A DNA stretch of 64,000 bases from Hericium rajendrae (Eukaryota; Basidiomycota; Agaricomycetes; Russulales; Hericiaceae). The position numbers and the translations under genes were made by a program. Each line of letters opens with the position of its first letter. The stretch's first letter is position 1. The notes below the pieces were generated by a model that was not told the DNA's origin, ran no database searches, and saw only the letters and a list, made by a program, of their open reading frames with translations. The stretch lies in assembly GCA_033439255.1 (NCBI GenBank), contig CM065884.1, forward strand, positions 1-64,000, read 5' to 3'. Positions 1 through 42,829 of the stretch are shown here, in pieces.

Positions 1-1300
1 GGACTGATCATTTTGATACGAAATTGCTACAAACTAGAATATGTGTAATGGTAGTATATGTTCGTACATTGAATACATTGAATACTGTTCAAGCTTCGAA
101 TTATAGTCCCTCTAGACCGGTGCTGAGGAGATGCTGTGACAATACATCACAGATACGAGAAAATCCCCAATGTGACAGATGGTTCCCGGTAGTAGCACTT
201 TTTGGACTCCAAACATTGAACTTTTCTCGGCGGATTTCGACCTCTCTGACCGGGAAGCATACATAGGAGCTTCACGGGGCCTCCCTCAGCCTCTCTTCTT
301 GCCCCTCAGTCTCTGCAATGATGTCTTCTTCCAAACACTCAAGGCAAGTCTTACAGTTGCTCGCGAGTCTTTCATTGATGGAAACGAAGATCCTTATATC
401 TGATTGGTCAAACTCACAAGTTGTCGACTTAATCAGAAAGGCCTGATCAGAGATGTAATGAGGTAAATTTCAAAAGGACCAAGGACTCAATATCCACGCA
501 CCTTTTCTGCTTCACTTGAGTTAAAGCAAGAGATTGACTCATCACGGTCTTGCTCCACCTGATATATGGGAAGCTCATTGTTCTTGCAGGATATCCAGAC
601 TTGCAAACGGCAAAGATCCAGTGACATTCCGATACAGCTGTTGTAAGCATCCAGAAATCAGTGCTAAAAGCTTGGACCTCAGCATCGAGCTGTGCGTACA
701 AAAGATAAAAAACACAGTCTGGCCTGAAGAAACACGACTTAGAGAGACGTTAGTCTATGCTACAAGTAGAGTGAGTAAAGGCAAAACTCATAAGTAATGC
801 AAGATATACTCACTTCAGTCTATTATGTGAAAGAGTGAGGTATCTGAGCGAACGAGGGAGCCCTTATATAGTACTGTAGGCTCTGCATATCTACCAATCA
901 GAAACTGTACAGTAATTATAAGCATAACATCATAGATTGCTCATTGCGTGAGAACAGCATCAGTCAGCTCACTAAGGTATCAGTAAGCGTATGTCTAACT
1001 TGTACAGTAAGGCTATGTGAGTGTTCCATGTGATTCTACAATCACTAAAGTCCAGATCATTTTCAATCTTTTCATACTTTGTTGTCATCGAGAGTAACAT
1101 CATCAACCCAACCCAACATGGCCCACTTGGGTTACCAGATATAACAATAGATTGACTCATCTCCATGTTGTGCAGAGTGTATGTGAGCGTGAGTAAGGAT
1201 GGCAAGAACCAACTGCTTATGCGAGTGCAGTGGCTGGTGTGGACAAACAGAAGTCACTACTTCATGATATATATGTAGATGATGTGACTTGGTCTTCGAG
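1..1300. other. AT-rich stretch without recognisable gene
   Basis: No open frame here exceeds about 90 residues and none shows a protein family I recognise. Base composition resembles the repeat-rich island that follows rather than the gene-dense part after about 10 kb. It is probably degraded intergenic or repeat-derived DNA. I found no telomeric-type hexamer run at the left edge. Confidence 0.5.
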
Positions 1301-1328
1301 CTATCCCTATGCTCATTAAAGTTCTGTG

Positions 1329-2795
1329 CAAACAATGTGAGAACATGTCCTAGCATGTCGAGACTCTGTGAGGATGTAGAATGAGCAGAGATAAACAGTA
1401 TGCATGGGCCAGCAGAAGCACTATCTGAATTATTTGCCTCTAATCAAAGTGTGCCTCTCTTGTGAAACAAATCTCTTCCAAATAATTGAAATATTGCTGC
1501 TGTAGCTCTGAACTTCTTCACGTCAGACCCAACGTATGCAAACCACATGTATGATAAGTTTGAGCACGATTAGACCAGACACAAATGCATAGCAAAAGTA
1601 ACCTCCTTGAGGAGGTGGCAGAGAGCAAACAATGTGAGATTGTGTCCTATTGTCTCGAACCTCTGTGAGGATGTACAATGAGTATGAATGAGTACCATGT
1701 ATAGACCAGCTATACAACAAAAGCAGTATCTGAATATTATTTAAAGCCAATGAAGGTACATATCCCCCAGAAGAAGATGTAGCTCAAATAATTCGAATAT
1801 TATAGCTATAACTCTGAATGCTTCCACATCTGACCTAACATATACAAAGCACATGTATGGTAAGTTTGAGCATGATCGGACCACACACAAATACACAGCA
1901 AAAGTTACCTCCTCAAGGAGGTGGTAAAAGGCAAACAATGTGAAATTACATCATATACTCTCAAAACTCTGTGAGGATGTATATTGAATGTAGATAAACA
2001 CTATGCATTGACAAGTTATACAGGAAAAGTAATATCTGAATTATTTGAAGCTAATCGAAGTATGTATCCTCTAAAACAAGATGCAGCTCAAATAATTTGA
2101 ATATTGTGGCTATGACTTTGAAACTTTTCATGCCTCATCTATCATATGAAAAACACATACCAAATAAGTTTGAGGATGATCGGACCACACACAAATACGT
2201 AGCAAAAGTCAGTCATGTTCTTGAGAAGGTGATAGAGGGCAGACAATTTGGAAATGTATGGTATGACCACGAAGCTTTGTGAGTATGTATATTGAATGTA
2301 CACAAACATGATTCATTCATCAGTTATGCAGCAGAGAGAATATCTGAATTATTTGAAGCTAATTAACATATGTATCCCCTAAAAAAAGATGTAGCTCAAA
2401 TAATTTGAATATTGCAGCTATGATTCTGAAACTTTTCACATCTCATCTAACAAATGCAAAGCACATATACTATAAGTTTGAGTGCGATCGAACCACACAC
2501 AAATGTGCAGCAAAAGTTGCCTCCTCAAAGAGATGGTAAAGGGCAAACAATTTGAAAACATGTTGTATGATCATGAAACTTTGTGAGCATGTATATTTAA
2601 TGTACATGAACATGATTCATTCATCAGTTATGCAGCAGAGGGAATATCTGAATTATTTGAAGCCAATCAAAGTATGTATCTCCTAAAACAAGATGCAGCT
2701 CAAATAATTTGAATGTTGTAGCTATGATTCTGAAACTTTGCATGTACAGCACTGCATATACCATGCACATACCATGCATGTTTGAGCGAGATTGG
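1329..2795. repeat. Tandem repeat, period about 305 bp, about five diverged copies
   Basis: The block beginning TATCTGAAT recurs at 1422, 1727, 2033, 2341 and 2645, giving steps of 305, 306, 308 and 304 bp. A second anchor, GCAAACAATGTG or close variants, recurs about 90 bp upstream of each (1329, 1627, 1932, 2240, 2543). Each unit also contains a near-palindromic AT core (CAAATAATTTG). Copies differ by scattered substitutions, and the two right-hand copies are most alike. Short frames across the units are not conserved between copies, so this looks non-coding. It sits directly next to the broken OrsD-like gene, where that gene's missing part would be expected. Confidence 0.88.
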
Positions 2796-2857
2796 ACCTT
2801 AGGATAATGAGTGGTAGAGGTCTTCTCCTAGAGGGGGTCAATTTTAGACAAATGTGC

Positions 2858-2977
2858 TCCAAACAATTCAGGCATTGCTCTTGGCAGGTCCATATTGCTG
2901 CAGCATCATAATACATCATGTATGAACAATATGTATGCACCCAAATGACCCCAACATTGCTGCCTGAATTGTTTGGA
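2858..2977. repeat. Perfect 17-bp inverted repeat around an 86-bp spacer
   Basis: TCCAAACAATTCAGGCA at 2858-2874 is the exact reverse complement of TGCCTGAATTGTTTGGA at 2961-2977. Weaker complementary sequence lies outside the arms (a GGGGTCA-like stretch on the left and an ATGACCCC stretch within the spacer). It could be a hairpin-forming remnant of a small non-autonomous DNA element or an inversion scar. No target-site duplication was convincing. Confidence 0.7.
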
Positions 2978-3047
2978 CCATCTTCTCCTCCTCTCCCCCC
3001 CACAACAATGATTGCCTTGCCGAGAAAGAACGGGACCGCCGTTTTTG

Positions 3048-5680
3048 CTAAAATTTCACATACAAGGGCTTCATATATATAGCTACCCACATACAAAATT
3101 TCAGGGCAAAATTCCATGACAACAGTTGTTGAGATGCAGGAATGTGGGTACCAATGTGGTTCAAGACAGATAGCATCTGATTGATTTCCGCAGTGTAAGC
3201 CATGAATTGTGAAAGTGCAGTATGGTTCCAAGCCAAACGATCATCAGAAACACGTCCAATAGCAAATTGCTTGCCAGCTTCTAATTTTTCTAATAACTCC
3301 ATAGGTTTAGTAGTGAAGGTCGCATTGTTCAACCATGAATATCCAGCATAGTCGTTAGACATGTCGTCAACCAGATTAGAGGGAATCTGATAATTCAGAG
3401 GAATGTCATCAGAAAGTTGGTACATCTTGTGTTCAACATCTTGCATGAGACGTTTCAAGCCTGAGCGTAACTTAGCAATCTCCAGTGTGTGACCTTTGAA
3501 GCTAACTTCTGTTATGTTACGACTCCATGTAATCTTGGGAGGTGCAGCTTGTCCTTTGACCAGAGCAGTAGTATAATGCTGATAGTCTTGAATAGCAGCA
3601 TAGGTAGATACAGCTTGCTCTGATAGAAAGAGCTGACAGTAGTGATGACATGCTCTGTAGAAATATATTTAGATTACTAAATTTAATAATAACTTATTAC
3701 TTACCCCATAGCTTTGTCCTCAAAGTCACCTTTCTTCAAATCTATTTGAAACAGCATAACCGCCTTGATAAGGTAGATCCATACTGACAAGTGAGTGGCA
3801 AAAAGATTGGGACCAATAAAAGATCCATCTTCACGAAGGCTGTCCACTGCTAAGAAGCATGTAAGGGGATCAAGCCACACCTCATCACGATCATTGCCTG
3901 TGGAAGAAAAAAGAGCAAAGACCAAATTGTGAACAGCAAGAATGGTAGCTTCATCTTCATGGACATCAAGCTTGAGAAGAAATTGGTGTGCCAAATCTGA
4001 TTAGGAGTCAAAGGAAGCTCATAGGTAGATTCATGGGTACCATCAACATAGCGAAGAACCATGGCCAAAAAACGAGTTAGGAATAGGACAGATCTGTTGT
4101 GAGTTTCAGGTCGATCATATCCCTTCCATGTAGCACCAGAAGATTCACTATAAGATATTATTAGTAAAATACTTATAATAATAATAAATGCAAACATACG
4201 ATGGATATTGTTCTAATGCCTTGAGAATAAGCCGAGCTATGTTATGAGATTTGCTGACTATAGAAAGCAAATACTTATTGACAACCTGTTTGAGATAGCC
4301 CAGTCTTGTGTTAAATCTAGATAGATGACCACCTTGGCCTGTAGTAAAAGATTCAGGCAAAGAACCTAAATCCAAAAGCAGTGTCCACTTAGAACGATCT
4401 TGATAGTAGTCTTTGAGATGAATATGCCAGTTGGTGACCTGTAAAAGAGGAGGAATGTCTCTTTCAGTGCTAGGACCAGCTGCATTGTGTTTCAAGCTGG
4501 AGATGTGCTGAGGATAGAGAGTGGTGATAAACATATCATAGGCAGAGGTGGTAGGAGGAGCAGAGAGTGTAGGATCCACAGAAAAATACTGCCGTGCATT
4601 AACTTTGATACTAGACCAGTAGAAAAAGGTCTGAAGAAAGGCTTCTACACTCTTTTTGTCAAAAGCTGTATGAGTACTGGAGTGCACTTCTCTAGAATGT
4701 CTGGATACAAGATCAAAGTTGATGGAAGCATATGAGCATTGAGGACATTTGAAGCCAGATTCAATCTTCAATCCTTCAACTGGCCTCTTGTCTAATAGAG
4801 CAGGAACATTGAGATCACAATGAAGACCAAAGTGCTGAATAGCCTCCTGTAAAAATTCATCAATGTCAAGATTCTTGTGACCATGGGTTTGCAAGTGTTT
4901 TTTCAAATCTTGAGGAAGAAATGCCTTTTCACAAGTAACACAGATGATGAGTTTGTGAACTCTATTGATGATACAACCTAAAGCGTCCAAAGTACTGTTG
5001 CTGAAGAGCTGAGTCATAGAAGTATTTGATTCTATCTCATTGCCTATAAAAATATCAATTATTTAAAGTTATACTTGATTAAAAAAAATATAAATGCTTA
5101 CTGAGATGCAAAGTCTGAGTCAGTTTAGCATCTACTAGATCAAGAGACATATTCATAGCATCATCACTAGACAATGACTTGTGATCATCTTGCATGATGG
5201 TATCATCTTCTAGTTCTGGAGATGGTACACGTGACACATGCTCTGAGAGTTGACGAGAGGTTGACTGAGAGATCAAAGGAGTATGAGAGGCAGAAGATCG
5301 AGGAGTCACATTTCTAGTAGAGCTTCCACCATATGGACCAATAGATGGATGGGCTCTAAGTGAGCGACTTGGACCTAGACCAGCATCAAGCTGCTTCTCA
5401 TGAACTCTCATATGATTATACATATCACGAGTGATCTCTGTAGTAAATGAGCAGAGCCAGCATGAAAATAGCCTGGTGGTCTCATCACGATTGCATATAT
5501 TTTTTGTCTATAAATTATCAAGTTAGAAACATTTAAAATTTACAAAACAAATTTTACTTTTTAAAGTCACTTCAACAGTAGGAACAGTAATTGCAGACTG
5601 ATGAGCTTTATAGCTAGTTTTAGGAATATTCTTGTTGCAGTGATCACAGTAAGTTGTCTTGGCCACTTAATTCTGATATC
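3048..5680 (-). pseudogene. Broken OrsD-like (DUF3505-type) C2H2 zinc-finger gene
   Basis: Reading leftwards, an early exon encodes CWLC followed by HMRVH (about 5450-5400), a C2H2-like finger, then a Ser-rich linker. The main exon (about 4200-5060) has an early finger (ICVTCEKAFLPQDLKKHLQTH) and a second (KCPQCSYASIN, then HSREVH). This arrangement is typical of OrsD/DUF3505 proteins, which in fungi occur alone or at the N-terminus of RecQ-like telomere-linked helicases. Later pieces (GYDRPETHNRSVLFLTRFLA, LDPLTCFLAVDSL, LVDDMSNDYAGYSWL) also fit the family. AT-rich introns with GT-AG ends lie near 5100-5045, 4197-4150 and 3705-3660. The frame appears to shift once near 4000, and coding ends near 3048 with no helicase motif. 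It is therefore probably a decayed copy. Function is unknown; the family assignment is from memory of motif order. Confidence 0.65.
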
Positions 5681-5902
5681 AGATTTATATTAAAAACAAA
5701 AATAGAATATATTACATACTTGATATGATAGTTTGATGAAAAAGCTGACAGAAGCTGAGATAATCAAAGATAGAAGACTGTAAAAGAACAGATGAGCAAG
5801 AAAAAAATACAGAGAAGGTAATTACTGACCAGAGACAATAGCAGTTGTAGATCAAGAGATTATTTGAATTTGTTTGTCAAATGATGCAAATTTCTGATAA
5901 TG

Positions 5903-6018
5903 CTTAGTCAGGATAAGTTTCAAAGTGATGCTGACTAAGTGACTCTTAAAAAAAATTAAATAATGCACAATTCTAACAATGCTTAGTCAGGATGAGTTCC
6001 AAAGTGATGCTGACTAAG
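5903..6018. repeat. Two copies of a CTTAGTCAG/CTGACTAAG inverted repeat, 79 bp apart
   Basis: CTTAGTCAG at 5903 pairs with CTGACTAAG ending at 5939. The same pair recurs at 5982 and 6018, with a nearly identical loop of about 19 bases. The 79-bp spacing means one unit has been duplicated in tandem. The surrounding DNA is AT-rich and non-coding. It could be a protein-binding site or simply a hairpin favouring local duplication. Confidence 0.75.
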
Positions 6019-6019
6019 T

Positions 6020-6290
6020 GATCTTTGAGAAAAATAAAATAGAATAATAAAAAATAACAAATAATAAAAAATTAAAGTCAGAAGTTATAATCATACCTGA
6101 TTGAGGTAGACAGTCTGATTATATACAAATTTATTCAGATTTTTTCGAAATTTATAGAGAGATTACAACTTACTGATGATGGTGGTTCAAGATCAAGAGT
6201 GATATTTGTTATTGTTGATAGTTACAGATCTAAAATAGAAGGACCGATGTTTTTTCTCACGCTTTAGCACAGCTACAATTTTCGACTTTC
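6020..6290. other. AT-rich spacer
   Basis: A-rich and T-rich runs between the short inverted-repeat pair and the 194-bp array. I see no open frame, RNA gene or regulatory motif that I can support. Confidence 0.5.
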
Positions 6291-6292
6291 TG

Positions 6293-7380
6293 CTTATGTA
6301 AGAAGTATCTGCACACCTTTTACATAAGCATACCGTAAGAAGAAAATCAAAGTTGTACAGAAAAATTTTGTGAACAAAACTACATTGGTCTTGTATGCAT
6401 AGCCATAGTCACTATGACATAAAATGCAAAATACTCGGTCAAACCTGAGTTTGAATAGACTTAGCCATGGTTTTCGAGATTTTCTGCTTATGTAAGAAGT
6501 ATCTGCACACCTTTTACATAAGCATACTGTGAGAAGAAAATTAAAGTTGTAGAGAAAAATTTTCTGAACAAGACTGCATTCGTCTCGTATGCACAGCCTT
6601 AGTCACTATGGCATAAAATGCAAAATACTCAGTCAAACCTGAGTTTGAATAGACTTAGCCATGGTTTTCGAGATTTTCTGCTTATGTAAGAAGTATCTGT
6701 ACACCTTTTACATAAGCATACCATAAGAAGAAAATCAAAGTTGTAGAGAAAAATTTTCTGAACAAGACTGCATTCGTCTCGTATGCACAGCCTTAGTCAC
6801 TATGGCATAAAATGCAAAATACTCGGCCAAACCTGAGTTTGAATAGACTTAGCCATGGTTTTCGAGATTTTTTGCTTATGTAAGAAGTATCTGCACACCT
6901 TTTACATAAGCGTACCATGAGAAGAAAATCAAAGTTGTAGAGAAAATTTTTCTGAACAAAACTACATTGGTCTTGTATGCACAGTCTTAGTCATTATGCC
7001 ATAAAATGCAAAATACTCAGCCAAACCTGAGTTTGAATAGACTTAGCCATGGTTTTCAAGATTTTTTGCTTATGTAAGAAGTATCTGCACACCTTTTACA
7101 TAAGCATACTGTGAGAAGAAAATTAAAGTTGTAGAGAAAAATTTTCTGAACAAGACTGCATTCATCTCGTATGCACAGCCTTAGTCACTATGACATAAAA
7201 TGCAAAATACTCGGTCAAACCTGAGTTTGAATAGACTTAGCTATGGTTTTCGAGATTTTTTGCTTATGTAAGAAGTATCTGCACACCTGTTATATAAGCA
7301 AATTGTAAAAAAGACTTAGCCACAATTTTCGAGATTTTAGCTTATGTAAAAAGTATGCAGATACCTTTTACATAAGCATA
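6293..7380. repeat. Satellite-like tandem array, exact 194-bp period, about 5.3 copies
   Basis: The anchor CTTATGTAAGAAGTATCTG recurs at 6293, 6487, 6681, 6875, 7069 and 7263, which is exactly 194 bp each time. Copies differ only by scattered substitutions, so unit length has been held while bases drift. Within each unit TGCTTATGTAA faces TTACATAAGCA across a short loop and can form a hairpin. Other constant blocks include TTAGCCATGGTTTTCGAGAT and AACCTGAGTTTGAATAGAC. The array breaks down after 7263, where a shortened unit places the next anchor at 7341. No conserved frame is seen. It is non-coding satellite DNA. Confidence 0.95.
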
Positions 7381-7399
7381 TTGATCAAGATAAGATTTG

Positions 7400-8143
7400 T
7401 AGGTCAAGGACCACCAAAACTCAAATATCTCCAGAATGAGCTTGAGCAACTTTTAGCTCTCTTCAGATCTGGGATACTGTATAAATTGCTCAAATACTCA
7501 CAAATTTTTAGAGAAATCAGAGCTAATTCATGTATTGACATAGAAACAAAGATCGAGGACCACTAAAACTCAAATATCTCAAGAATGAGCTTGAGCAACT
7601 CTTAGCTCTCTTCACATCTGGGATTGGACATAGATTGCTCAAATATCTGCAAAGTTTCAGAGAAATTGGAGCTGATTCATAGAGTAAGTAGCTTAGATAG
7701 TCTTTTAAACTTGTTTGCTATATATCTCCACAACAAGTTTGAGCAACTCTATGAATCTACCACTCCCAAAATCAGACAAATAGAGGCTATCGTCATGCCA
7801 AGTCTCAGCCAAAAGAGTAAGGAACGTGGCCCAGTTCACTCCAGTTTACTTCAGCCTAACAACCAAACTTAACACCCCTATATCTTTACAACTGCTTTGA
7901 GCAACTCTTTGAAACCACCACTTCCTTGATCAGACAGATGAGGACTAGCAACATGCAAAATTACAGCCCAAACGAGCCACATTTGAGCTGAGGAAGATCA
8001 GTCGAGCTGAGGTTTACAGGTCGAGGACCACAAAAACTCGAATATCTCAAGAATGAGCTTGAGCAACTCTTAGCTTTCTTCAGATCTGGGATCGAAGATT
8101 TATTGCTCAGGTTTTCTGAAATTTTCAGAGAAATCGGAGGTGG
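7400..8143. repeat. Degenerate tandem repeat, period about 150-160 bp, five copies
   Basis: TTGAGCAACT occurs at 7442, 7591, 7739, 7897 and 8059 (steps 149, 148, 158 and 162). Copies 1, 2 and 5 share a longer block that starts near GAGGACCAC and runs through AATATCTCAAGAATGAG to TCTGGGAT. Copies 3 and 4 resemble each other more (a CTACCACTCCC-like block after the anchor). This suggests two subfamilies within one array. Frames crossing it are short and not conserved. Confidence 0.8.
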
Positions 8144-8146
8144 TCA

Positions 8147-8168
8147 CCGTAACGTGGCCACGTTACGG
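8147..8168. repeat. Perfect 22-bp palindrome
   Basis: The half-site CCGTAACGTGG is followed immediately by its exact reverse complement, with no spacer and with GGCC at the centre. It is strikingly GC-rich within an AT-rich region and marks the right end of the 150-bp array. It could be a dimeric protein-binding site, an end or junction remnant of a mobile element, or a cruciform-forming sequence. Confidence 0.85.
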
Positions 8169-9935
8169 CTGAGCAAATAGCTTGGTAAGTTTATATTCCT
8201 AATCTCTTATGTCTTGTGCTAATGTCTTCATACTTGTAAGCTTTGTCTTGTCTTATACTAATGTCTTCAAATTGTCTTGTAGATTTTCGCTTTTGTGTGT
8301 TAGGTTAGTAAGCTTTTATATGTTATCTTTGTTATCTTTTAATACTAATGTCTTTTTCCTTAGAAATTTTCGCATTTTGTAGTTCTGACAAGTCTTATAA
8401 TGTTTTATATTAATCTTCACTAATGCTATATTATCTTAGATGTTCCTAATATTTATTATCTTGTATTATATAATATAATGTTGTAGTATATTGTTATGTT
8501 GTAGTTAGTCAATAAAATATCTTGCTATTCTTTATCTTTTGTGTGATCTTCATGAATTGTCTACTTAATCAATATGTAGATATGTGTAGAATTTTATTAA
8601 GTCTAGTATGACTATAAATTCATATTATAACATTGTAATCTATTATGAATATGTAGAGTACTCAGCTAATTGTAACCACCAGAGCATCTATAGTATCTGT
8701 AGAGCATATAAGCGAAACAGGTGTTGGCTGGACCCCCAGTCAACTGTCGTCTGCAGTAGCTACATACCTTACTCTTTAGTTAGGATTCGTCACACCCTTT
8801 CCAACCCAACGACAAGAAAGACAATTTCTATACTGACATCGATTACATCATAATTCTCAAAGACCTGCCTCAGGCAGCAACGAGCAAATGCTCATCTGAC
8901 ATACCACCCCACCTGGTGAAAAAAGCTCGTATCTACTAGAAAACAAGACCAGTCTGTAAGTGAAATCTACATTGATAGACGTCATTACTAACTCTGTACC
9001 CATTTCTAGTCTCTGTACCTCTGAATCACTCAAACACAACAAAATTGCCCACAAAAAAAGCAGAAAACCGAGAAACTGAGGAAAAAAAAAAAGAAAAAAC
9101 TCTTAAACACTTCAAAATTCCTGTATCGCTATCACTGTACATTACCTAGTGAAATTGTATGATAATGTGGCATCTGTTCTAACCTTTGCAAAGTCGGTGA
9201 CAATACCCTTCATGGCTAACTTAACTTTACCTGCCTACACCCCCATGAAAACAAACATTCATTGTGTAGCTTTGCCGCAAAAATACAATCTAACTCCAGA
9301 AACCAACAGCTTCCATCACACACGACATGTCTACAAAATGTTAAAGCTTAGTACATGCTGACGAAGAAACTATTCACATTCGAAAACAACCTCCACAATG
9401 CACATAGCTAAAGATTTCTCACGTGACATGACTCCGAGCAAGCCCCGTCGCCACAAGCGACCCTTCGAGTGATGACTAATCTACCAGAAAATGCCCACAG
9501 ATCGTGGGTATAATGGCAGTAGGGAGCCCTCGCTCCCTACTCCACCGGTCTAGCATAGAAGCTCGTTGCTGGATTTCGAACGAATTGAAACACAAGACAA
9601 AACAGATAAGCAGAAGTACAGCGCTATGGTTCGTGGCCGACCGCGGAGTCCTGTACAGAATAAGTATAGACAAATTACGCATAAATCAGTTCAGACCGAG
9701 GCGAAGACAGTTAGGTAACGACGAAGTCCCAGAAGAGCACAGGCAGAAACGAGAGACGGAAGGACCACGGATATACAAGAAATATGTGGCACAGCATAAT
9801 AAGCAAAGCGGGTAAGTGGGAAATGAGCGGCAGGGACGGAAATGTCCACAGAGAAGAGGTCGGAACGACCGACTGCTGCAGACGAATGGGCAGCACGGGA
9901 TGATTATGAGAGAGGGGAAGCCGGAGCCATGACTT
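8169..9935. other. T-rich non-coding stretch grading into gene-dense DNA
   Basis: From 8190 to 8400 a motif close to CTAATGTCTT recurs at least three times among T-rich runs, a poorly conserved low-complexity repeat. Around 9060-9100 there is an A-rich run. After about 9.4 kb the composition rises towards that of the genes on the right. The last part should hold the 3' untranslated region of the membrane-protein gene on the minus strand. I see no supported gene. Confidence 0.5.
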
Positions 9936-11677
9936 TTACTTGTTCGCAACCTGCAAGAAGCATCGAAATGAGGACAGCGCTACCGAATAGACACTAGAAA
10001 GGGACTTACGCGCAACACACGTCGTCCGCCGTCATAGCCATAGTCCTCCTCATCGTGGAGGCTCGGCTGACTATCATCATTTTCGACGATGTGCTGCATA
10101 TGCCCAGCATCAGGCGGAACGAGCTCGGCTTCGCTCTCAACCGGAGAGGGTGGGGTATGTGGGCGCGGGGAATACGGATTCGGCATTGTGGCCCCGGTGT
10201 CGAGGTATCCCCCGTACGCAGTGTCGTCGGCGGGCGCGCGGCTAGGTGCAAGCGCCGCCGGGATATTTCTAGCTTGCCGCTGTTGAGGCTGCGCAGGAGC
10301 AGTTTCTTGATAGTAAGGAGGCTGGCCATATGGCTGGCCCGAGGTATTCGAAGGGGGATAATGGCTCTCACTGCTCAGCGCATCGCGATTCGACGGGTTC
10401 GACGGGTTCCTCGCGACTCCAGGCTGAGACTGAGGCTGAGGCGGGTATTGGGCACGGGCGCTTTGCGATGCCCCACGCGTGAGGGCGTACGGATCATTAC
10501 CGACGCCCTGGAGACCCGCGGCAGCGAGCAAGTCGTAGCTGGGGTTCTGATTGTCCGGCACGCCCGTGTTGCCACGGTAGCGCAGCTGCTGCGAGTCCGG
10601 CATCTCGTACTGGCCAGGTTCGCGATTCGCAAATGAGCCATATGGGTCCTGTGGGTCCTTGCGGCTGCGCGCACGTTGCATCGCACCGACGCCGGCGCCG
10701 ATTCCAGCAGCGCCAGCAGCACCGGCGGCGCCGAGGTATTCCTGCGAGGGAGGTATGTTGGACATATTGTATGCCTCGCCTGGTTGATGGGACATGGGCG
10801 GCTGGGCGAACGTCCCATGGCTGCCGTCAGAGTAGCCGCCATAGCCAGTACCGGCCGTATTGCCTGAGGTATAGTCGAAATCGTCGAAATCAGGTCCTGG
10901 GGCCGCCGCAGCTTCGGCGGCAGCGTCATCGATCTCCTTGTCGAACTTTCTCTGACGTCGTCGGCGAATGGCAGCTGTGATGACCACAAATGCAATGACG
11001 ACAACGACAATGCCGACGACGGCAAAAACTCCCGCAACAGCACCCTTGTTGTGGAAGAAGCTGCGGGCGACACGGTCAGATACAGGGATAGACGTACAGT
11101 GAATGAGAACAACACTCACCCGTTAGAAGTGGATCGGTTTGATGGATCCGACGCACCCCCAGTAGGAGTGGGCCCTCCAATCGTCACAACAGCCGTCTGC
11201 GTGAACGTCTGCCCATTCGAAGTCACCACGGGAAAGCTTGTGCTCAAATGACTACTAGAGGTCGATTGCGTCGATGAAGAAGAAGTTGACTGGGCCGACG
11301 AGGACTCGCTCGAAGTGGTACTCGACGAGGATTGCGACTCTGAAGACGACGATGGGGGTGCAGACGAGCTTGTCGAGTCAGTCTGACTCGATGACGACTG
11401 TGAAGTCGATGGAGGCAACGAGCTGGTAGTGCTAGATGAGGTAGACGGGTCGGGGCTGGAAGAGGTAGACGGCTGGAGAGTGGAGCTCGTCGATGTCGGC
11501 TCTGGAGAGGATGTGCTCACGGCAGGCGACCTGGCAAATATGTTTGCACAAAAGGTAAAAACGTTATTATAGGCTTACGAAGTAGGCAAAGGAATCAGAG
11601 AGGTCGTGGCTACAGACAAAACGAGTCAGGCAATAGACAAGACGGACGGCAGAAGACGCACTCGTTCGGTCACTCAT
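9936..11677 (-). CDS. Mucin-like single-pass membrane protein
   Basis: The first large exon (11120-11530) encodes an almost pure Ser/Thr/Pro ectodomain, expected to be heavily O-glycosylated and wall-spanning. The next exon (10010-11060) opens with FFHNKGAVAGVFAVVG, then a hydrophobic helix, then RRRRQRK, a clear stop-transfer and basic cytoplasmic anchor. About 320 residues of Gly/Ser/Pro/Tyr-rich cytoplasmic tail follow. A 59-bp intron (9951-10009) leads to a tiny last exon ending VANK. Introns at 11061-11119 and 11531-11578 have clean ends. The start is uncertain: frame continuity needs another intron near 11610, and the ATG at 11677 is the nearest candidate, so no signal peptide can be shown. 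The architecture resembles fungal wall-stress sensors, but no WSC domain is visible. Function is inferred only. Confidence 0.75.
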
Positions 11678-40082: not shown

Positions 40083-42829
40083 TCAGTGAAAGAGACTTGA
40101 GGAGCACTTCCAGTTTTTATGCTTGTAAGGCTTGTCAACGGGGAATTCGAGCACCTCCTTCCAATCCTCAGCTCCAGTAGGCGTAGACATCACAGGCGGG
40201 ATCCATTCTGCACAAATAAGAACATTAGGGGCTGTCGATTCGACGAAGATAAGTCTAGCTACCTGACATCGTTTTCTGGCTGATGCTGTTCCAGTCCCTG
40301 AGGATTCAAATCATCAATTAGTCATGTTTCACTGAATCCAAGCAGCAGGGGATACACTCACGTCTCGCGAAAGAAGTCATCATTGATCACCTGTTCAATT
40401 TTGTACCTCTTCTTGTCGTCATACTCAAGAAGCTGCGTGAAGGGGACGACACGATATGAGCCCTAAGCAGGGTGTTGCAAAGCGATGGCACTTACTTTAA
40501 GTATCATCATTTGCGCTTCTTGCGGTACCCAACACATCGTCCTACGACACATATTCGCGAGGGCGACATCCCACTCACGCTTTAATTCTTCCCGGCCTGT
40601 AAAGCATCGCTGAAAACGAAGAGAGGTTAGAGAGGTTTGCTGACGCGCGATGCCAGTAAACAGCGTACATCAGCCATGAAGATCTCGAATATGATCACGC
40701 CGAGAGACCACAAGTCAGCGGCACACGTGTAACTGCGCGGTTGGTCTGAAGCACACGCAACGACTTCAGGAGCCATATAATTCGGCGAGCCTCCATACCC
40801 ATCGAACTCGACTTGACAGAAGGGCAAGGAGGCAGAACTCTTGGGCGCTTTTTCGGCCAGTCCGAAATCCGTGATGATGATATGGCCCTTTCCGTCAATA
40901 AGGATGTTTTCTGGCTTGAGATCTCTGTGAATCATTCGCAGACGATGCAGTTCCTCGACCCCTTGGACCTGGTGACGACGAATGATCAGATACATAGAAT
41001 AAAGAATCACCGTGCACCACTCACCAGCTCTTCGACGCAGTGTCTCTGAGCCCTCCGGTTGAAAGTATCCCTGTAACACGGAGTGTAAATCACGTCATGC
41101 AACGACACACAGCAAGGTTTCTGTGGTAATTTTGTCAGCCGAAAGATCAAGCCAAGTGCAGAGAATCACACACCATAACCAGGTACGAGTTGATGTCATC
41201 AGTAAAGACGCTCCAGAGGTGTATAAGCCACCTTGCCCTCTTCTTTGTGATGTACTTCCAAGCCTTGATCTCCTGCTCGTACGTACGGCGAATTCGTTCA
41301 TCCGTAGCCAGCTCGTGCAGGTTGTATGTTTTGATCGCGACCTCGCACACGCCGTGGGATGCACACGGCGCATCGCCACACCTCGTGCATTTCCCGCTGC
41401 GCACGACGAGCGCCTTCCCGACACGGCCGAACGAGCCCCGGCCAAGCAAGCGCGTGACGGTGTACACAAGATTGCCGTCCGTGATTTGCGGCTGCACGTC
41501 ACCAACGGATTCAGGTCGGGTCACGTCATGCTCAGCGTGCGGCGATGCTGGTGGCGCACAGTCGTCCTCCGGAAGCGAGGGGATCTCGGGCATGTCGTTC
41601 TGCGGAATGGCGGAATCGGAGGCGGACGTCGAGCACTGGGAAGCTGTCGACAATGGCGCGGCCTGGGTCCCGTGCGAGCCGGAGACAGTCGAACGTGCAT
41701 ATGTCGACGACGACCCTTCCACGGCGCCTGTCGATGATAGCCTCCTTGGCCACTCCTCGACGACCGGGCCACGTCGAGTCACCACGCCGGCACCTCCCAT
41801 TCGGGTCTTTGGCTTCTCGTAAACATCCGCTCGGTGTTCAGCGCCGAATGTCACCGGCGGCGCTTGGCGCCTGGGCGGTCTCGCGGGTGGCAGGACACCT
41901 TGCAGATGCTGGACGTGGGTTGAGGTCGTGGGGTAGCGTTGAGGACGCTGGGCGTATACCGGTGAGATGAGTTCGTCACAGGCATGCTCGTCGTTTTGCG
42001 GAGGCGTCGTTGGGCCTTGCGCATGGTGGTTGAGTGCCAGAGGAGCGGGTTGATCTTGCGCATACTGATAGTCAACCAGAGGCGCGGATTGGCCTAGCTG
42101 GGCCTGATCGACAACCGCAGGAGTACAACCGGAGAGTATGTGGCGTGTGGCGTATCGAGGGACTGGAGGGGGTCCCGGAGGAGTTGGGAGGGCTCGTGGC
42201 TGCTGGGGAGCATGGACGCATTGCGGATTTTCGGGGAGCCCCGGAGGAACGGCGTATTGTAGATTATGGGTGACCGCCGGAGGAGCGAGTTGACCGTGCT
42301 GGAGCTGGCCTTTCGGGGGTTGCGAGAGGTGCTGCGGGGCTTGGGGAGCGGAGGCGTGTTGCGCGTTCTGAGGGAGCCCCAGAGAAGCGGTGTGGTATGG
42401 ATTTGAGGAAATTGTCGGAGGATCGACCTGATCTTGCTGATATAGACCTTGCGATTGCTGAAACTGGCTTTGCGGTTGCTGGAGCTGAACATATGGTTGC
42501 TGGAACTGACCTTGCGGCTGCTGAAGGGCCGCCGGATAAGCCAGCTGGCCTAGCGCGAACGAAGAGGATGTAGAACCGGTCCGGGGATACTGGACGTGCA
42601 GGGAGGTACCACACTGCTGCTGGGGGAAGCTTTGCAGGGGCAGAGGGAGTAGCGGGGTAAGGCGATAGAATTGCTGCTGAGGAGAAGCATAGTAGTACGG
42701 CTGCAGCTGCAGGGAGACGTGAATGGGGTAGTACAGCGGCGGTAGCACCGCAGGCCCGTAGTAAGGCTGCGAGTACTGTGGAAACCCCGCGTGGATAGGC
42801 TGGGGTTGCACGAACGCATATGTGTTCAT
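40083..42829 (-). CDS. Ser/Thr protein kinase with Gln/Pro-rich N-terminus
   Basis: The first exon encodes about 400 residues rich in Gln, Pro and Tyr, with imperfect repeats such as [18 protein letters not shown], probably disordered. The kinase domain starts [19 protein letters not shown]. It is followed by an unusual insert [15 protein letters not shown] directly before VAIKTY (the ATP-site Lys). A small exon [18 protein letters not shown], found by splicing, supplies the hinge and helix D. Then come [26 protein letters not shown] and [11 protein letters not shown], so all catalytic residues are present. Later exons run to a C-terminal tail with [12 protein letters not shown] and [18 protein letters not shown], ending CSSSLFH at 40083, resembling an AGC-type extension. 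Family placement is uncertain. A TATA-like box lies about 70 bp upstream. Confidence 0.85.

Follow-up and report, generated by a model that had tools for sequence, protein, structure and literature searches.

Many fungal chromosomes carry RecQ helicase genes at their ends, for reasons that are unsettled. The Y′ elements of yeast are subtelomeric, helicase-bearing units with telomere tracts as borders. Helitrons encode a Rep nuclease and a Pif1-type helicase, have the 3′ end CTRR and insert between A and T; they carry a hairpin just inside one end and lack terminal inverted repeats. Judging by the title of a 2008 paper by Kempken, a repeated element of Tolypocladium, CPA, is said to encode a RecQ helicase-like gene.

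The telomere-linked RecQ helicase (TLH) genes described in Ustilago (UTASa and UTASb), Pyricularia and Agaricus bisporus var. burnettii have a RecQ core and an OrsD domain (named for UTASb) and, in the portions of the reports cited here, are subtelomeric, multi-copy and partly truncated (PMC10532341, PMC7473861). Work on Pyricularia telomere failure and MoTeR relics describes, in the part we draw on, internalised telomere tracts, truncated elements and duplicative end capture (PMC8381367). Rotifer terminons, or endonuclease-deficient Penelope elements, are described in the cited sections as large, telomeric multi-gene units with one fixed end (PMC6431247, PMC5537684).

We analysed the first 64,000 bases of contig C7 of the 46.8-Mb Hericium rajendrae genome (the window), the first base of which is contig base 1. 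The island at its left is probably a layered record of serial one-sided additions to an eroding left chromosome end, from which the sequence of events at one end of a eukaryotic chromosome can be read. All counts from genome searches below are lower bounds, and copies of an element are non-independent observations.

Composition and tandem arrays of the island

GC content is 0.35–0.41 across 1–10000 and 0.49–0.62 elsewhere in the window, which bears out the AT-rich island proposed in an earlier, sequence-only reading. Tandem Repeats Finder detected arrays at 1479–2739 (period 304, ×4.1), 5879–6041 (period 79, ×2.1), 6287–7300 (period 194, ×5.2), 7233–7383 (period 78, ×1.9) and 7407–7680 (period 149, ×1.8). 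The 194-bp array and the 78-bp repeat overlap, and the unit of the former is partly reused in the latter. The four periods first reported, about 305, 79, 194 and 150 bp, are thus real, but the arrays are not independent of one another. They fall into two multi-copy elements: the 304/305-bp array belongs to one that we call A, and the 79-, 194- and 149-bp arrays belong to one that we call the TLH element.

The proposal that 1–9400 contains no intact gene also stands, in that the longest stop-to-stop frame there is a 304-aa OrsD frame from a cut gene, although small or intron-rich genes may remain. No tRNA genes were found in the window.

The TLH element and its truncated gene

The TLH element (3153–8185, minus strand) consists of an OrsD/RecQ helicase gene and upstream arrays, and its helicase half is missing here. 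This copy is 99.6% identical to C8:37159–42197 over 5039 bp, and the flanks on C7 and C8 are unrelated. The multi-exon gene (3156–5507, minus strand) has a zinc finger exon at 5079–5507, an OrsD exon at 4148–5062 (Pfam OrsD, 51.8 bits against a cut-off of 26.6) and further exons within 3701–4212 and 3156–3668. It is frameshifted relative to C8: one exon that forms a single frame there is divided over two frames in the window. The OrsD domain itself occurs at at least four places in the genome.

On C8 the OrsD region runs on into DEAD and Helicase_C domains, for which the best solved matches are RecQ1, RecQ5 and RecQ; the helicase domains found in the TLH protein, which was read incompletely, are of RecQ type only. 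In the window this core is missing, and the end of element A stands in its place, cutting the gene at 3155. Both the broken OrsD-like gene and the leftward position expected for its helicase part had therefore been read correctly.

By eye, a stretch of the helicase protein looks like a tyrosine recombinase of the Crypton type when set beside what we take to be the motif of these enzymes. Pfam, PHROGs and the PDB gave no such match, and the pattern, chosen after the stretch had been seen, is also matched by 87 of 20,000 shuffles; we do not claim this identity. In the pieces examined, no recombinase was found by Pfam, PHROG or solved-structure sequence match, and exact peptide patterns found no IMG/VR relatives of two of the proteins.

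The inner end of the TLH element is fixed. Its terminus, GGCTGAGCAAATAGCTTGG (8167–8185, plus strand), occurs at seven places with no detectable similarity among their flanks; for five of them a contig end is at most 120 kb away. The target carries GG in three of three joins (a raw count), and the gene is directed away from this end. The end hairpin corresponds to the perfect palindrome that had been noted earlier (8147–8168); no other perfect palindrome of 22 bp occurs in the window. Two of its nine pairs vary on both sides among TLH copies, a count that rests on four distinct sequences and is reached by 18 of 500 shuffles. A hairpin is also possible in both units of the 79-bp repeat, and the 194-bp repeat has an inverted repeat, TGCTTATGTAA.../...TTACATAAGC, in all five full units.

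Each of the four exact-terminus copies is cut on its outer side at a different point: A makes the cut on C7 and C11, the telomeric tail of a third family, G, on C8, and the end of a further TLH copy, a variant, on C1. A TLH gene in a block that has a precise, hairpin-bearing end and recurs beside unrelated DNA suggests a mobile element or its passenger. The mobile-element reading predicts the form of new joins.

Element A, family G and the telomere repeat

Positions 1–3155 (plus strand) are the inner end of A, within which the contig begins. At another place in the genome A spans about 21 kb; homology continues beyond window base 1, on C4 for 7.06 kb, as far as the contig end, and on C11 for 18.2 kb (read except for 3.2 kb). 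Positions 1–5800 gave at least 72 match rows against the organism's own genome, self and TLH rows counted. Inside A are a dispersed repeat (723–1129; 85–87% identical, at least 19 places) and, close to the fixed end, the 304-bp array (plus strand, 4.1 copies).

That fixed end, GCAGGAATGTGGGTACC followed by AAT (3136–3155, plus strand), is found at 18 places, 16 of them exact, one with one mismatch and one five bases short. Seventeen junctions were read, and 14 close with ...TACCAAT; the absence of AAT from the other three counts against the explanation that we favour. There are only two related pairs among the 17 flanks, each cut at differing points. The target holds AAT in four of four testable joins, with an AAT background of 0.027 in window positions 3156–8184. 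Contigs C7 and C15 stop at nearly the same position of A (bases 1 and 21), suggesting assembly breaks in this repeat, so one might suspect a chimeric A/TLH join. Such an artefact is very improbable, however, because the same terminus is present at 17 other places, at 16 of which the junction was read.

A 981-aa reading frame of A resembles a cysteine protease by eye only; it has no Pfam match, and we dropped this assignment. No hairpin was found at the end of A, where 172 and 148 of 200 shuffles (two strands) fold at least as well.

To the right of the TLH element is an internal fragment of a dispersed repeat (8184–8711, plus strand), cut on both sides. It has at least 33 other places in the genome, and the repeat is longer in all five copies read. 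The last ~110 bp of G follow (8697–8810, plus strand), with the telomere-like tail CCAACCCAAC at 8801–8810. Eight identical 24-base G termini occur in the genome, and six of six copies read have tails of variable length (8–24 nt); the fixed end of G is a telomere-repeat complement of variable copy number. The inner end of a further family, D, is similarly a telomere-like tract. For the DNA behind the tail (8811–9400), no other copy is among the matches listed.

The telomere repeat is likely (TTGGG)n. It is known from only two contig ends, which counts against the favoured explanation: the right end of C17 has 26 units, the last 42 bp from the contig end, and that of C1 has three, stopping 2 bp short. 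The controls built into the TTGGG searches were uninformative, as reversing the pattern gives that repeat again. Four consecutive TTAGGG units occur nowhere in the genome. In the cited part of a report on Hericium coralloides, its telomere repeat is given as CCCAA/TTGGG (PMC11508549). Given this repeat, 8801–8810 looks like a fossil telomere, with the chromosome resuming at 8811. However, every G copy read contains CCAACCCA, so the 10-nt tail is not necessarily telomere and could instead belong to G proper.

These ends recall a terminon or other telomeric retroelement, in which RNA with a fixed 3′ end would be primed by the chromosome's 3′ end. A has one fixed end, toward which its two long reading frames point with a long array-bearing stretch between, and the tail of G is a telomere-repeat complement of varying copy number. 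Nonetheless, we consider this origin unlikely. Pfam and motif searches found no reverse transcriptase in the examined pieces of A and the C8 stretch (15 isolated motif matches, none judged convincing), no Rfam family reaches its gathering score in the window, and the TLH gene faces away from its fixed end. None of five weak Rfam matches in 1–9400 is a hammerhead, the window containing only ~110 bp of G.

Orientation of termini and order of events

All termini near contig ends face inward: 13/13 for A, 5/5 for TLH and 6/6 for G (24/24), on contigs >400 kb and at ≤160 kb from ends, limits chosen after the places had been seen. The window starts its contig, and copies of 1–3155 and 3153–8185 lie mostly near contig ends; the repeats are neither unique to this spot nor mid-arm, in agreement with the subtelomeric position suggested by the sequence-only reading. 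Its idea of a former landing zone for mobile DNA was likewise right, and the pattern is more specific, in that each element is joined by its fixed, contig-inward end.

Several places count against serial addition at ends. There are interior termini of A (C2 at 2.50, 2.51 and 4.48 Mb), TLH (two, C1 at 0.66 Mb) and G (C10 at 1.65 Mb). The A copy at 4.48 Mb has the opposite orientation, as does a telomere-like tract on C6, 49 kb from its right end. Of the two A copies on C19, a contig of 192 kb, one does not have the orientation expected from the nearer end. The interior copies would suit ordinary nested transposons with a subtelomeric preference, whose outer parts were later lost or lie beyond the contig, and the AAT and GG target overlap resembles that of an integrating element. 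Yet this alternative is distinctly unlikely, given the 24 inward termini and the TLH remainder expected beyond A on C11, where no further TLH or OrsD sequence is among the matches listed. Terminal inverted repeats were rejected for A, whose terminus has a single orientation near each contig end.

Y′-like recombination, in which a chromosome end that has lost its protection invades an internal telomere tract and all DNA distal to the tract is copied, without a mobile element proper, would account for G and D and for the orientation. End capture by copying after telomerase knockout is described in the cited part of the Pyricularia work (PMC8381367). We regard this as a serious possibility that we nevertheless do not favour, since the A and TLH termini have no telomere tract and still recur, at 18 and seven places, next to DNA that is unrelated or cut differently. 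The Y′-like and terminon-like processes are also possible sub-mechanisms, overlapping with the favoured explanation.

Under serial one-sided addition, we infer the following order, with additions at chromosome ends rather than insertion followed by loss, although any single join may instead be an insertion with later loss. Family G would have been added onto an old chromosome end, leaving 8801–8810 as a telomere relic. The end would then have eroded and acquired the dispersed-repeat piece. Next, the TLH element would have joined at GG via its hairpin-bearing end, and after loss of its helicase half, A would have joined at AAT via its fixed end. Each join may have been duplicative: a deprotected end would pair with a few bases of an element's fixed end and copy outward to the telomere. 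In the case of G and D, telomere repeat could have paired with telomere repeat.

A bolder version is that the TLH helicase is its own element's mobility gene, acting on the hairpin end, attaching that end at GG to a broken or deprotected chromosome end and copying outward to the telomere. TLH loci would then be chromosome-end-capping transposons with one fixed end and no reverse transcription. We put this forward as a long shot.

Among known systems, Y′ elements are similar in being helicase-bearing subtelomeric units, and G and D are likewise bordered by telomere-like tracts; by contrast, the fixed ends of A and TLH have no such borders. The TLH element shares with Helitrons a hairpin near one end and the lack of terminal inverted repeats, but it ends in CTTGG rather than CTRR, joins at GG rather than between A and T, and has a RecQ-type helicase. 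Terminons, as far as the cited sections describe them, are alike in the one fixed end of large multi-gene units and in the telomere-repeat complement that G carries at its fixed end; they differ in that neither reverse transcriptase (in the pieces examined) nor hammerhead was found here and in that A and TLH have no telomeric tail. Internalised telomere tracts, truncated elements and duplicative capture at ends are common to this locus and the Pyricularia/MoTeR case as reported in the part cited, whereas here the repeat is TTGGG, there are several families, and the ends of A and TLH are without telomere repeats. The CPA element of Tolypocladium, judged by the title of its report alone, may narrow the novelty of the TLH element. 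Like the TLH genes in the cited portions of those reports, the gene studied here has a RecQ core (in the C8 copy), OrsD and zinc fingers, and is multi-copy near contig ends and truncated in part. Unlike them, it lies within a block that has an exact, hairpin-bearing end at seven places with unrelated neighbours.

Fixed ends within the AT-rich island

The data fit, with fairly good probability, a history of successive additions at a chromosome end, in which the fixed inner end of each new piece would have been attached to the remnant of the piece before it. Such joins may be made by recombination, by reverse transcription or by a dedicated enzyme. The window occupies C7:1-64000 in a genome assembly of 46.8 Mb and 19 contigs. 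A sequence-only reading had described its left part as an AT-rich island with tandem arrays, a palindrome and a broken OrsD-like gene. All of the arrays are indeed present, GC content in the island is 0.35-0.41 compared with 0.49-0.62 in adjoining sequence, the OrsD domain is genuine and its gene disrupted, and the palindrome was located at window 8147-8168. Outside the island, a 21-bp tandem repeat (3.8 copies) occurs at window 42445-42523.

The outermost piece belongs to element A, a large multi-copy element inside which the contig starts. Window 1-5800 has at least 72 matches in its own genome, a number that includes the window itself and matches to the neighboring TLH element, and many of them stop at base 3155. 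In 14 of the 17 copies whose junction was read, the element ends in GGGTACCAAT and different DNA then follows; the other three end one, two and five bases earlier. Among the 17 inner flanks (400 bp each) there are two related pairs, each pair cut at a different point. A genome-wide pattern search found 16 exact termini, a shortened copy on C19 and one terminus with a single mismatch (C3, base 205, the match being counted on the terminus alone). Three further matches with two mismatches were taken as chance, given four in the control.

Beyond window base 1, five other copies of element A continue at 97-99% identity for 1.5 kb, and a sixth for 1.2 kb. The C11 copy retains homology to other copies for 18.2 kb past that base, or roughly 21 kb in total, of which 3.2 kb is unread. 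Eight copies share a reading frame, at most 497 amino acids long, at 99% identity; a ninth, distant match (34%) occurs on C1. Farther out on C11 (C11:2234300-2244299) is a SET-domain gene region, possibly part of element A, encoding an EZH2-like methyltransferase (SET 6.4e-10, from joined exon pieces); the adjoining 3.3 kb recurs with 99% identity at four other chromosome ends.

The TLH element and its joins

The TLH element (window 3153-8185) carries an OrsD/RecQ helicase gene that, in the window, ends at 3155, where element A starts. A copy at C8:37159-42197 is 99.6% identical over 5039 bp, and in that copy the gene goes on to encode DEAD and Helicase_C domains, with matches to RecQ1, RecQ5 and RecQ. 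On C8 (35743-37674, minus strand), part of the sequence between OrsD and helicase looks to the eye like a tyrosine recombinase (RH...GHSS...Y), a likeness that found no support in any sequence search.

The second side of TLH, at 8185, is also fixed. The genome has seven instances of GGCTGAGCAAATAGCTTG(G), of which four are exact, two have one mismatch and one has two, and no similarity was detected among the seven flanks. An eighth match, on C9 with two mismatches, was taken as chance (two in the control). The four copies with exact termini have four different cut points: by element A on C7 and on C11 (window-equivalent 7515), by repeat family G on C8, and on C1 (window-equivalent 7050) by the terminus of a variant TLH copy. 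No copy of element A or TLH showed its far end. No further TLH or OrsD sequence was found on C11 among the matches listed.

Target sites were compared only at joins whose target had an uninterrupted relative available. The target was AAT in all four such joins of element A and GG in all three of TLH, namely a dispersed repeat in the window and, on C1, both family D (uncut on C8) and a 194-bp unit of another TLH copy.

The palindrome sits just inside the TLH terminus. Across four distinct TLH sequences, both partners change in two of the nine pairs, and pairing holds in 97.2% of cells; it is lost when the partner is slid, yet 18 of 500 shuffles do equally well. An inverted repeat is present in all five full 194-bp units and in both 79-bp units. 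Three 194-bp units (window 6281-6782) gave weak U5 snRNA-like Rfam matches of 23.8-31.9 bits (cut-off 40), which are probably chance.

Telomere-like tails and orientation near contig ends

Inward of TLH lies an internal fragment (window 8184-8711) of a dispersed repeat found in at least 33 other places, and then the terminal part of family G (window 8697-8810). The terminal 24 bases of G occur eight times in the genome, all identical. Six copies were read, comprising five of these termini plus a variant copy at C19's right end; each ends in CCAACCCA, followed by at most 16 more bases in telomere register (8-24 nt of tail in all) and then unrelated sequence, which on C8 is the truncated helicase gene. 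Family D ends in the same telomere-like repeat on C1 and C8. Outward of a G end, C8:27.8-31.9 kb holds a gene for a helicase that looks SNF2-like by eye (Helicase_C 5e-11, from joined pieces), with 94/390-bp tandem arrays after it; together these may be the body of G.

CCCAA/TTGGG forms 26 units that stop 42 bp short of C17's right end, and three units stop 2 bp short of that of C1; four tandem copies of TTAGGG are absent from the genome. A study of Hericium coralloides likewise gives CCCAA/TTGGG as its telomere repeat (PMC11508549). CCCAA/TTGGG is therefore likely the telomere repeat here, and we accordingly read window 8801-8810 as a telomere relic, although CCAACCCA occurs in every G copy read and could be G's own tail. 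Window 8811-9400 has no other copies among the matches listed. A further segment, about 90 bp at window 9465-9556, has copies of 75-76% similarity on C1, C2 and C10 and matches no tRNA or Rfam family.

Among copies lying no more than 160 kb from an end of a contig longer than 400 kb, both limits having been chosen after the places were seen, the fixed end faces inward in 13/13 copies of element A, 5/5 of TLH and 6/6 of G. These are ends of contigs rather than chromosomes, with telomere repeats known at only two. Five copies of element A fall outside the count: one of two on the small contig C19 is concordant with the nearer end, and one of three inside C2 is discordant. The two TLH and two G copies outside are all concordant. 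Fifty 15-bp telomere-like matches merged into 20 tracts; with one on C14 left out, 8 of 9 within the same limits are concordant, and 10 of 10 beyond them agree with the nearer end. Termini and/or telomere-like tracts deep in contigs (C1:664755-664855, C10:1648844-1649277 and C2:2502676-2512126) are oriented as at a former chromosome end, and may reflect either past fusions of chromosomes or misjoins.

Related systems in other fungi

A repeated element bearing a RecQ-like gene is reportedly present in Tolypocladium. Within the portions covered of a literature lying mostly outside subscription papers, we found no description of a TLH block that has an exact end with a hairpin and lies next to unrelated DNA each time. 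Subtelomeric RecQ genes, some copies of which are truncated, are described in Agaricus (PMC7473861) and Ustilago (PMC10532341). In Pyricularia, duplicative captures follow telomere failure, similar to the additions proposed here (PMC8381367).
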